From: Heliocybe sulcata
Taxonomy: Eukaryota; Basidiomycota; Agaricomycetes; Gloeophyllales; Gloeophyllaceae
DNA: 64,000 bases
Assembly: GCA_004369045.1 (NCBI GenBank)
Contig: ML213522.1
Span: 251,775 to 315,774, forward strand
Reading direction: 5' to 3'
The first letter of the stretch is position 1, and every line of letters starts with the position of its first letter. A model generated the notes under the pieces. It was not told where the DNA came from. It was given only the letters and a program-made list of their open reading frames with translations, and did not search any database. Below, piece by piece: positions 40,921-51,490 of the stretch. The position numbers and the translations under genes were made by a program.

Positions 40921-43138
40921 ATGTCGACTACGGCACCCCAGTCACTTCCGGTTCTAGTCGTAAGCTCAAACTCGCTCGCTATTGGTATCAACCGAAGCTC
41001 ACCTTGGCTCCAGGTTGGAGCTGGCCCAACAGGTCTTGTTCATGCGCTTACTCTGCGCCAGAGTGGCGTACCTGTTCGCATCATCGAGAAAGCTCCCAAA
41101 CCGTTTGTTGGTTCACGAGGAGCGGGAATTATGGTATGTCTCGTTCGAATATATGTGGTCCTTAAGACTAAGTGCGACTTAGCCGCGTACTGTAGAAATC
41201 TACAACTCGCTTGGGGTGCTGCCGGATATTTTGCAAGTCGCTGTCCCGTTGCCGCTCAACCGGGAGTATAAATTACCAGGCGGCACAGAAGTCAAGAGAG
41301 ACTTCAGCATGTGTCCGCGCTCGCACTCTACGCCTGGTATCCCGTTTGTAAGACAGGACTCTTTGACAGATGGAATCGACTCTTACTTCTGTTTCCCAGT
41401 TCAACCTGTACATGTTGGGCCAGGATATGGCTCAGGCCATCCTGCGTTCTCATTTGGAGAAGTATGGTTGCCATGTCGAGCATGGCACGGCGCTGTGTAA
41501 TTTCGAACAGCACCCGGACCACGTCGAAGTGAATCTGGCCAAGAATCAAGATGGCACCGAAAGTCAAGAGACCTTCTCGGCCTCCTACGTCGTAGGGGCC
41601 GACGGCGCCCGAGGTTAGGTTTTTCATGCTAATGAAGTAAAGCAAGACATTTGACAGTTCATGACGCAGGCATTGTCAGGAAGCTTCTTGGTCTCTCGTT
41701 CGATGGCGAGAGCACAGGAGTCGGTGTCATCATTGCAGATGTGAAAGTGCGGGGACTGGAGCGCGGTGTAAGCGCCTCGGCTTTATTGCAATCGTGTATA
41801 CGATACTGACATTCTGCAGCACTTCCATATGTGGGGCGACATGGCCACCGGCTTGTAAGCTGGTACTATATTCCGTGCTGAGAACTACTCATATACACAT
41901 TTTCAACTAGTTTCTCTGCTTTACCACGGTACACGCATGATGACGATACCTTCTGGATGATCCTTTGGGGTTCAGGGGTAGAGGAGAAAATGACTGCCGA
42001 TCCGGAAGTTGTGAAGCTCCTCGTGCGGAAATTCACGGACAGGTCCGACTTTGAAATTATGGATTTCCTGACCTTGAATTACGTCGAGTAATTCATCTTT
42101 CTCTTGCGCTGCCTCAGGCTTTTCTTACCACGACGTGTATGCAGATTCAACGTCCGCATGGTTTCTGAATTTAGTCGAGGTAGGGTATTCGTAGCAGGAG
42201 GTGAGCACCTCTTCCTCACCGCTTCTGGTACCGCTGACCAGATCACAGACGCTGCACATGTCCATAGTCCAACTGGTGGACAGGTAATCATTCATGAATT
42301 AATGTAACAGCGAGTAAGCTGACATCATTCCAGGGAATGAACAGCAGCATTATGGACGGGGTGAGGATCATATCATTTTGTACAGAGAACTTCTTATTAA
42401 TCTTGCGCCTTCCGTCATTCGCAGTTCAACCTGGCCTGGAAACTCAGCCTCGCGTACAAAGGCTTGGCCTCTTCGACTCTTCTCCAGTCCTACACCGATG
42501 AACGCAAGCCGGTCATCCAAAACATGCTGAAGGTTACGACCGAGACCTTGGAGAAGACCCTTCGGAAGGATGATGGCGGCTGGGAGCGCGGGGCGAAGTA
42601 CTATCAGCTGGACATGAACTACCGAGGAAGCCCGATCGTTGTCGACCATCGGCAGGTGGACGTCTTGAATGCTCCCCCGGCGAATGTCTATACGATCAGC
42701 TTCGTCGGGACAGTCCAGGCTGGCGACAGGGCACCTGATGCGCCGAATCTGCTCGACCTGAAGCGGACGGACACCGCGCCGGCCATAACCAACCTGTTCA
42801 GGATCTTCAGGCCTACGAAGCATACGGTGGTGGTACTCTCGAATTCAGGGTCAGCTGCGGACTTAGTCGTCGATTTCTTGCGCGGCGCGAAATATCCCGC
42901 CGATTTCATCCAGACAGTGTTTATTCTGCCGGCTTCCGTTGCGGTGCGCGAGAGCGATACTCTGCCGCAAACGGACTTTGTGCTGAAGGACGCCGACGGT
43001 CACGTCTACGAGGGATACTCGGTGGATCCGTGGAAGGATGAGGTAACAGTGGTTATCGTTCGTCCGGACGGCGTGGTCGGAGGGATTGGAAATGGAGTGG
43101 TGACCGTGAAGGACTACTTCCAAAGGATCTTTGCCTAG
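40921..43138 (+). CDS. FAD-dependent aromatic monooxygenase (phenol 2-monooxygenase-like), copy 1
   Basis: Hydroxylates aromatic or polyketide substrates with NAD(P)H and O2. Start MSTTAPQSLPVLV, then after an intron the dinucleotide-binding VGAGPTGLVHALTLRQSGVP. Next are PRTVEIYNSLGVLPDI, MLGQDMAQAILRSHLEKYGC, SYVVGADGARG (the DG motif) and, split by an intron inside the Asp codon, VAGDAAHVHSPTGGQGMNSS (the GD motif), then FNLAWKLSLAYKGLA. The C-terminal third (from about 42650) is the thioredoxin-like domain of phenol hydroxylases, ending YFQRIFA. No signal peptide is seen. About ten introns match those of copy 2 in position and sequence, showing tandem duplication. Substrate cannot be assigned; there is no adjacent biosynthetic core gene. 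Confidence 0.9.
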
Positions 43139-46853: not shown

Positions 46854-48308
46854 ATGGCTTCGGCAGGCAGTACGTATAGTTAGGCCGATTCAGCAAACCG
46901 CTAAGCTGACGGTAGATTCAGAATCTCGTCATGAACTCGACACGTTCTGCCGGATGAATGGGATCGTAGACGAGAGGTGCTGGCGTGACGTCCGGGAAGG
47001 TGGGGAAGACCATCTGCCGCGATGGATGGCCACCATCGACAGTGAGTACTTTTCGAGTCTGAGACGGTGCACGAGTAACCATTATGATTTCTAGTCGGTG
47101 GTCGACTGAGCGGCACGGGAAGAGGCTCGAGTAAAGCCGAAGCCAGAGATGCAGCGGCGAGAAACGCGCTCGAGAACTGCGCGTCCCCAGGTGCTGCATC
47201 TCAGCCTGCACCGGAGACTCCGGCAGCGAGCCAGCAGTCCGTCCGACGCCGCGGGCCACCAGCACTGGAAGAGGAGGATCCGTTTCGTGCGACTGCTTCC
47301 GGCGTTCAACCCTCTGCATACCGTTTCCTCGACGGTGCGGGCCGAGCATCTGGTGGGACACTGTCGACCTCTGCGAATAGGGCGACTCCCACTCTGCAAC
47401 ATGGGTTTCCCCTCAGCCCGCCGATGACGCCAAGTACTAGTGCCAGTCCGTCTTCCCTTACGCCGATGTTCTCGTCTCCCCCTCGCTCTGGATCTGCCAT
47501 ACCCTTGTTTCGACAGCCTTCTAGCGGGAACGGCAGCACTCCGGTCATAGGGTTTCGCTTGAAGCTATTCCTTGGTGACAATCCTCGCAACTCAAATCAC
47601 TTCAGAGAGACGGAAATCATTGAAGGATGGGACGACGAAATGATTTTGCGCCATTTGGGCTTGACATATGATGAGATGCGTGGCAAATGGCGTAGGAGAC
47701 TGTCTATCAAGCGATTATGGTGAGGTCCTCTGAATTTCCATGCAGAGTCAGGCACTGAGAGCATGGTCCTCACTTCCTTCATAGCGAAGTATCACTGGTG
47801 AAGGTAGCAGAGCCATCCCATGATAATGCTTATGGGCGGTTACTTATCAAGACCTTGCTAGCACGCACCGGGCTATTGGTGCGACAAAAGCTCGTACCAT
47901 CCCGAACAACCGGGGCCGTATAACATTCCAGCCTACATGGCTGCACCGGCCCTTGCACAAGGTAAACATGCTCTGAAGGGATATCTGTCAGAAATATCCG
48001 AGGCATCGGAGGCTCAACTAGGAATCACGCGAAAGGGGAAGTACGAGTTGGGGCTGAGATTCGTGGAGGGATGGCAGGCGGCGCCGATCTTAGTGGTAGG
48101 GTGTCTGGTGGTACTGGCGTCGACGGTGGTGTTCGCCATCTGTTATTGGAGGAACCACGGCGATTTGTCCACGTCCTTTACCATTGCAGGTGAGTGAAGT
48201 GGTACCATGAGAACGATTGTCCCTCATTGCTTCCCCGCAGCTTTCATTGCCGGTTTGTGTGCGACGCTCCTCGCGGTTGTTCAGATCGTGATATCAATAC
48301 GCAGTTGA
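46854..48308 (+). CDS. Double-stranded RNA-binding domain fused to a C-terminal membrane-anchored fungal domain
   Basis: Exon 1 is 16 nt (46854-46869) and exon 2 begins at 46916, giving MASAGNSESRHELDTFCRMN. The dsRBD follows (residues about 8-75): GGEDHLPRWMATIDIGGRLS, GTGRGSSKAEARDAAARNAL; the final GxGxSKxEAxxxAAxxAL helix is diagnostic. About 125 disordered Ser/Pro-rich residues lead to RLKLFLGDNPRNSNHFRETE, EGWDDEMILRHLGLTYDEMR and KWRRRLSIKRLCE. A 13-nt exon (47785-47797) joins in phase on both sides to HAPGYWCDKSSYHPEQPGPY, ALKGYLSEISEASEAQLGIT, LRFVEGWQAAPILVVGCLVV (first membrane helix) and FTIAGAFIAGLCATLLAVVQ (second helix). The end is ISIRS with the stop at 48306-48308. If the last junctions were wrong, the gene would stop at 47723 without the membrane part. 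From memory, the tail resembles a two-helix end of uncharacterised fungal proteins. Function unknown; membrane-tethered dsRNA binding is inference. Confidence 0.7.
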
Positions 48309-49274: not shown

Positions 49275-51490
49275 ATGCCATCCCAGTCTCTTCCCGTCCT
49301 AGTCGTATGAGTCTCACTTCAAGTGGTATCTACCGACGCTGACCGTCGTCTCTAGGTCGGAGCAGGTCCAACAGGCCTTGTTCATGCTCTCACTCTATGC
49401 CAGAGTGGTGTGCCTGTCCGTATCATCGACAAGGCTCCCAAACCGTTTGTTGGTTCTCGAGGAGCGGGCATCCAGGTTTATCCGTTTCAAACATGTCCAC
49501 CTGCCACTACTGACTGCGTCCAAATGATATAGCCACGTACCCTCGAGGTCTATAACTCACTTGGGGTTCTCCCGGATATCCTCACCGGCGCTGTTCCCAT
49601 GCCGATCAACCGGATCTATAAGCTACCAGGCGGCACCGAAGTCATGAAGGACTTTAGGATGTGTCCGCGATCATACCCGACACCTGGAATACCGTTTGTA
49701 AGTCCGACTCTTACATGGGGGCTCGGCTGTCACTTACCTTTCAATCCCAGTTCAATTCGTACATGTTGGGCCAGGATGTGGCTCAATCCATCCTGCGTTC
49801 TCATCTGGAGAAATATGGTTGCCATGTCGAACATGGCACTGAGCTGCGTACTCTGGATCAGCACGCAGACCGCGTTGAAGCACAGATAGTTAAGCACGAG
49901 GATGGAAACGAAAGTCCAGAGACTTTCTCTGCCTCGTATGTCGTAGGGGCTGACGGCGCGAGAGGTCATATTCTTCCTACAAGAGAGCCAAGGTATTGCA
50001 TCTGACGGATACCATGCAGGTGCCGTCAGGAAACTCTTAGGTCTCTCGTTTGAGGGACAGAGTACAGGAGTTGGCGTCATCATCGCGGACGTGAAGGTCC
50101 GAGGCCTGGAGCGAGAGGTAAGCGCATCGCTTTCCTTGGAGTTATGTTTAAGCAGCCGACCTTCTGCAGCACTGGCACATGTGGGGTAACATGTCCACCC
50201 AAGGGTAAGTCGGCATTACATTACGTCTTGCGCTAAACCTGACTCAAACATGCATTGTTAAACAGTTGCTCTGCCTTACCGCGGTACACTCATGACGACG
50301 AGACCTTCTGGATTATATGCTTCGGTAAAGAGATAGAGGAAAAGACGGCTTCTGATCCGGAGGCTGTGAAGGCGCTCGTGAAGAAATTGACAGACAGACC
50401 TGACATTGAGATCACGGATTTCCTGACTTTGAATTACGTCAAGTAATTCATTTTTCTCTCCTGCTGCTTTAGGTTTTCTGACAGCGACGATTATACAGCT
50501 TCAATGTCCGCATGGTTTCTGAATTTAGTCGAGGCAGGGTATTTGTAGCAGGAGGTGAGCACGTCTTTCTCGTGGCTTGTCGTACCGCTGACCGCATCAT
50601 AGACGCGGCACATGTCCATAGTGCAGCTGGCGGACAGGTAATGACTGTCGTTACGATGCGCCACGGAATCAGCTGACACGGTTTCAGGGCATGAACAGTA
50701 GTGTCATGGATGCCGTGAGGATCATGTCTTTGTGCCGAGGACTCCTTACTAACCTTGCGCCTTCCCTCGCTCGCAGTTCAACCTCGCCTGGAAAATCAGC
50801 CTTGCGTACAAAGGCTTAGCCTCCCCAAATCTCCTCCAGTCCTACACCGACGAACGCAAGCCAGTCATTCAGAAGATGCTAAAGGTCACGACCGAGACCT
50901 TAGAGAAGACGGTCCGGATGGACGACAGCGGCTGGGAGCGCGGGATGAACTTCTACCAGCTGGACGTGAACTACCGGGGCAGCCCGATCGTTGTCGACCA
51001 TCGGGAGGTGGACGCCTTGAAGCCTCCCCCGACGAATGTGTATACGATTAGCTTCGTCGGGACAGTCCAGGCCGGCGACAGGGCACCTGATGCGCCGAAT
51101 CTGCTCAGCCTGAAGCGGACGGACTCTGGTTCAGCTCTCACCAGCCTGTTCAGGATCTTCAAGCCCACGAAGCACACGGTGATGGTGCTCTCCGCTTCGG
51201 GGTCAGCTGCGGAGCCAGTCGTCGACCTCTTGCGCGACGCGAAATATCCCTCGGATGTTGTGCAGACAGCGTTTATCTTGCCGGGATGGGTTGCGGCGCG
51301 CGAGAGCGATGCTCTGCCGCGAACAGACTTTGTCCTGAAGGACACGGACGGTCACGTCTACGAAGGATACTCGGTGGACCCGCGGAAGGAGGAGGTAACA
51401 GTAATTATCGTTCGCCCGGATGGTATGGTCGGAGGGATTGGAAATGGAGCGGCGACTGTGAAGGAGTATTTCGAAAGGGTCTTTGCCTAA
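49275..51490 (+). CDS. FAD-dependent aromatic monooxygenase (phenol 2-monooxygenase-like), copy 2
   Basis: Close paralogue of the gene at 40921. Start MPSQSLPVLV at 49275, then VGAGPTGLVHALTLCQSGVP, PRTLEVYNSLGVLPDILTGA, MLGQDVAQSILRSHLEKYGC, SYVVGADGARG and the split GD motif VAGDAAHVHSAAGGQGMNSS, where copy 1 and most of the family have SPTGGQ. The C-terminal thioredoxin-like domain is complete and ends YFERVFA. Intron positions are the same as in copy 1. The frame is intact throughout. The change in the GGQ loop lies next to the flavin ribityl/pyrophosphate site and may alter activity or substrate choice. Confidence 0.9.

Follow-up and report, generated by a model that had tools for sequence, protein, structure and literature searches.

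The window, a stretch of 64,000 nucleotides (nt) of Heliocybe sulcata DNA, carries on its plus strand at positions 46854-48308 a six-exon gene that encodes, according to our own gene model, a protein of 393 amino acids (aa): a double-stranded RNA-binding domain (dsRBD) is followed by a Ser/Pro/Ala linker and a C-terminal module with two hydrophobic helices (see Table 1). The five GT-AG introns (46-65 nt each) leave the frame unbroken; the gene ends agree exactly with the coordinates of the original prediction for this DNA, and the open reading frame (ORF) pieces sit where it had placed them. Exon 3 alone, which takes in the latter half of the dsRBD, the linker and the start of the C-terminal module, is stop-free, and the linker, proposed earlier as a Ser/Pro segment, indeed contains 22 Ser, 20 Pro and 16 Ala in 123 residues. 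One intact gene that joins dsRBD, linker and two-helix module is considered highly probable as far as the architecture alone is concerned.

The dsRBD becomes recognizable upon splicing: one of the unspliced halves matched no family and the other reached 18.3 bits, below the threshold of the Pfam family dsrm (PF00035), whereas the spliced protein matched this family with an E-value of 1.6e-7 and 32.2 bits (cut-off 23); the splice that unites the halves thus restores the domain. The closest sequence match in the PDB was dsRBD1 of PKR, the vertebrate kinase activated by double-stranded RNA (dsRNA), at E 9.5e-5 and from helix 1 to helix 2; a Staufen-type dsRBD (6sdw, E 0.098) was among the weak matches. 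The RNA-contact motifs of canonical dsRBDs are a GPxH loop and a KKxAK patch. The beta1-beta2 loop of the window protein reads GEDH (GSDH in the paralogue described below) and retains the histidine. The RNA-contact patch of the domain, designated canonical earlier, is partly kept. No kinase, CARD or helicase was detected in the 393-aa protein by Pfam (kinase at E up to 10).

In the C-terminal module, the Kyte-Doolittle peaks (19-residue window) start at residues 338 (2.9) and 373 (2.5), and all windows that exceed 1.6 start at residues 329-341 or 364-375; the paralogue has two similar runs. The structure model shows two long helices; by sequence, the loop between them has approximately 7-9 residues. 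Both helices lie in the last 60 residues, and there is no hydrophobic segment at the N-terminus. Upstream of this hairpin, strands and helices are predicted in the order beta-beta-alpha-beta-beta-alpha-beta and weak structural matches of the model (modest to low confidence) converge on ubiquitin-like, RA and PB1 beta-grasp domains, which suggests that a beta-grasp-like part precedes the hairpin; the module differs from these domains by the membrane hairpin directly after this part and by having no sequence match to them in Pfam or the PDB. The C-terminal domain with two hydrophobic helices claimed in the original prediction is thus present as regards the helices, and is in fact a conserved module which includes the predicted beta-grasp-like part and is found on other N-termini as well.

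A paralogue of the same domain order (L021; 377 aa, dsRBD, linker and module) is located on the same contig, on the opposite strand and about 32 kb away. The two proteins align over their whole length with 26% identity (E 1.5e-30 when only these two sequences are compared), and the intron phases match, with one extra intron in the linker of the paralogue. With our splice the paralogue matched dsrm at E 1.0e-5 and 26.4 bits, compared with 18.5 bits for the public splice: its public model P0008, named a DRBM-domain protein and devoid of membrane helices, uses a different donor within the dsRBD and thereby gains residues, with the result of the lower score. P0008 ends at an in-frame TGA overlapping the intron donor before the micro-exon, the counterpart of which in the window gene is a stop near 47723. 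The public protein at the window locus, OE88DRAFT_744610, is identical to residues 158-393 of our model, micro-exon residues included, and lacks the dsRBD as a consequence of its start at an internal Met inside exon 3. As a result of these differing models, the public records give the membrane end at the window locus (an uncharacterised protein without dsRBD) and the dsRBD end at the paralogue (a dsRBD protein without membrane helices), which is a lesson for annotation. This differing division of the pieces, the end of P0008 at the TGA and the apparent existence of short dsRBD-only genes in H. sulcata (contig C5) would be in line with a short dsRBD-only gene that lies next to a module gene and has been falsely joined to it by read-through; this explanation is, however, very improbable given the one open frame of exon 3 and the same dsRBD-module join in the paralogue, in P0008 and probably in the Neolentinus lepideus protein P0007. 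In particular, the full-length paralogue speaks strongly against two separate genes and agrees with the earlier claim of a single gene with the dsRBD in frame with the two-helix segment.

Table 1. Features of the dsRBD gene and flanking genes in the window.
Feature	Position	Strand	Content
Exon 1	46854-46869	+	Start codon, MASAG; phase-1 intron, then dsRBD helix 1, likewise in paralogue
Exon 2	46916-47041	+	First half of dsRBD, helix 1 to strand 2
Exon 3	47095-47719	+	Second half of dsRBD, Ser/Pro/Ala linker (residues 77-199), start of module; single open frame
Exon 4 (micro-exon)	47785-47803	+	19 nt, EVSLVK
Exon 5	47862-48189	+	Remainder of predicted beta-grasp-like part, membrane helix 1 (about 48075-48143)
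Exon 6	48241-48308	+	Most of membrane helix 2, stop; preceding intron of phase 1, as in 5/5 module gene models
dsRBD	46930-47180	+	Residues 11-76 (spliced); Pfam dsrm over residues 31-75, PKR dsRBD1 alignment over 11-74
C-terminal module	47550-48302	+	Predicted beta-grasp-like part (residues 200-333), membrane hairpin (334-392)
Public protein OE88DRAFT_744610	47424-48308	+	236 aa, without dsRBD
FAD monooxygenase gene	42401-43135	+	FAD_binding_3/Phe_hydrox_dim
FAD monooxygenase gene	50753-51487	+	FAD_binding_3/Phe_hydrox_dim

For the micro-exon, a length of 13 nt in phase on both sides had been proposed; the phase stands, and the length is revised to 19 nt, which is favoured by the models of all five H. 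sulcata module genes and by the public protein at the window locus (P0001), which contains the corresponding residues. Both readings preserve the frame. In our models the 19-nt exon occurs at the same place in each of the five genes, the regions of which contain exactly one AG-N19-GT site each, and equivalent residues are present in five of eight public proteins (P0001, P0002, P0003, P0006, P0007); counting against 19 nt, P0005 (from the C5:1467k gene) has a 13-nt-like form, P0004 is without the residues and P0008 ends before them. One 19-nt case proves little, because, for one gene, 27-41% of the resampled intron regions contain an open AG-N19-GT piece by chance; five such exons in register that encode similar residues are better evidence than the single case.

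The H. sulcata assembly (31.6 Mb, 51 contigs), in which the window occupies G000:C20:251775-315774, contains at least five module loci when searched with single module members as queries: the window gene, the paralogue, C5:993k, C5:996k and C5:1467k. All five gene models have the phase-1 intron before the second helix, and the module subfamilies were related to each other with a probability of 98.3 in a profile comparison. The three C5 genes bear other N-termini (two of them proline-rich by eye); for C5:993k no public protein was among those returned. The C5:1467k gene (L041) is without the first membrane helix and still has the micro-exon and the final intron, as would be expected of a truncated variant or of a copy in decay. 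Of the seven proteins that a module profile search yielded, three belong to H. sulcata and four to N. lepideus, both species of the Gloeophyllaceae (order Gloeophyllales); this one search was of limited reach and missed the known member P0001, so that its result is no proof of absence in other species. P0007 of N. lepideus starts with an apparent half dsRBD in which Pfam detects no dsRBD, and this suggests that it carries the same dsRBD-module fusion; no dsRBD was present in the public model of P0006. Judged from these sequences, the module is a conserved unit in its own right that is also borne on other N-termini in H. sulcata and N. lepideus.

Regarding function, the favoured reading is a membrane-tethered dsRNA-binding adaptor with a tail-inserted hairpin, a partner-binding beta-grasp part and mycoviral dsRNA or structured mRNA as ligand; the probability of this statement as a whole is estimated at roughly 0.45. 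The missing hydrophobic N-terminal segment, the hairpin in the C-terminal tail and its short loop point to a tail-type insertion with both protein ends in the cytosol. The dsRBD and the beta-grasp part would most likely be cytosolic and the tail inserted in an internal membrane (endoplasmic reticulum (ER) or outer mitochondrial membrane), whereby a flexible linker of approximately 120 residues would give the dsRBD reach. dsRNA would then be captured on the membrane and presented to a partner held by the beta-grasp part; the likeliest ligands would be structured mRNAs or the dsRNA of replicating mycoviruses. We infer from sequence that the gene yields a single mRNA and that its product is oriented and membrane-inserted as described, binds RNA of the kinds named and recruits a partner; an antiviral role, and the link to mycoviral RNA recognition or RNA transport put forward in the original prediction, are likewise putative.

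The low confidence of the structure models and the incomplete basic patch of helix 2 weigh against this adaptor; the patch reads K-A-E-A-R compared with K-K-E-A-K in PKR, i.e. two of three basic residues are kept and one lysine is replaced. Residues 1-76 contain 11 Lys/Arg and 13 Asp/Glu and are thus net negative. The coding composition is only weakly gene-like: GC content at third codon positions (GC3) is 0.58 for the window gene and 0.54 for its paralogue, versus 0.68 for a BUB1-kinase exon of the same window. The weak codon bias, together with the family member C5:1467k that lacks the first membrane helix, would also be compatible with a decaying gene copy without useful protein; in both dsRBD genes, however, the frame is open and the GT-AG sites and conserved module residues are intact, so that decay is regarded as most improbable. 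The incomplete basic patch and the negative net charge might instead indicate that the dsRBD has lost RNA binding and serves as a protein-protein domain that brings other dsRBD proteins (dsRBD kinases, Dicer) to the membrane: dsRBDs are able to dimerise (PKR, TRBP/PACT), and genes that combine kinase and dsRBD domains are present in the same genome. Considering the loop histidine and the two basic residues retained in the helix-2 patch, this loss is unlikely. Likewise, the protein might tether the cell's own structured mRNAs at the membrane (Staufen-like localisation or ER-local translation) and have no antiviral role, in agreement with the weak Staufen-type match and with neighbouring genes (FAD monooxygenases, BUB1-type kinase, LsmAD protein) that show no defence cluster; this is rather unlikely, as the single dsRBD, the low paralogue identity and the occurrence in two genera (in the limited search) are easier to reconcile with a rapidly evolving function than with core mRNA transport. 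An extension of the adaptor reading is quite doubtful: a lineage-specific single-chain membrane dsRNA receptor of mushroom-forming fungi, the dsRBD of which would sense mycoviral replication intermediates at their membrane of origin and the membrane-proximal beta-grasp part of which would relay the signal, possibly to the dsRBD kinases of the same genome, with the module as plug-in base for varied N-termini.

The architecture is unusual, as had been held from the outset, and differs from each of the known systems compared. PKR, which provided the best PDB match, is soluble and has two dsRBDs and a kinase, whereas the window protein has one dsRBD and, in place of the kinase domain, the membrane module. 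RIG-I-like receptors and MAVS likewise couple dsRNA recognition to a membrane-anchored adaptor; here, sensor and anchor would be a single chain without CARD or helicase (Pfam). The SID-1/SIDT dsRNA channels are membrane proteins tied to dsRNA too, but SID-1 is a many-helix protein without dsRBD, in contrast to the two helices and the dsRBD found here. Adaptors of the Staufen/TRBP type are weakly similar in dsRBD sequence and possess several dsRBDs and no membrane helices. Neither such an architecture nor a fungal dsRBD protein with membrane segments was found among the titles and abstract openings listed in a literature search; fungi possess RNA interference, and to our knowledge no membrane-tethered dsRNA receptor is known in them. 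Provided that the dsRBD is an RNA binder and the hairpin an anchor, the protein would be a compact device for recognising dsRNA at membranes, and might give access to the antiviral biology of fungi.

In the window, the gene is flanked by two similar FAD_binding_3/Phe_hydrox_dim monooxygenase genes, apparently the product of a tandem duplication; the BUB1-type kinase and the LsmAD protein are encoded farther upstream. No family recognised as defence- or virus-related was found at E up to 0.001 in the 18 ORFs scanned of the 30 window ORFs of at least 200 aa.

With an E-value limit of 10, a PF00035 search of the H. sulcata genome gave 15 stretches, two of which belong to the window gene and the paralogue. 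The other 13 were judged from the ORF pieces at their loci (L026, with two stretches, was seen in part), and none of them matched in any module search of the genome. At L022 (G000:C1:1075500-1084500), neighbouring ORF pieces indicate a tandem gene pair in which dsRBDs come after a protein kinase domain; the domain set resembles that of PKR, here in a fungus, with the order of PKR, dsRBDs before kinase, reversed. ORF pieces resembling several dsRBDs within one gene occur at L023 (G000:C1:1028500-1033500). L024 (G000:C5:1057500-1063500) comprises short genes of approximately 65-75 aa, apparently dsRBD only, one of which, joined by eye over an intron, scored 32.4 bits with dsrm. At L025 (G000:C31:212000-216500), dsRBD-like ORFs adjoin an ORF that by eye resembles a retrotransposon gag.
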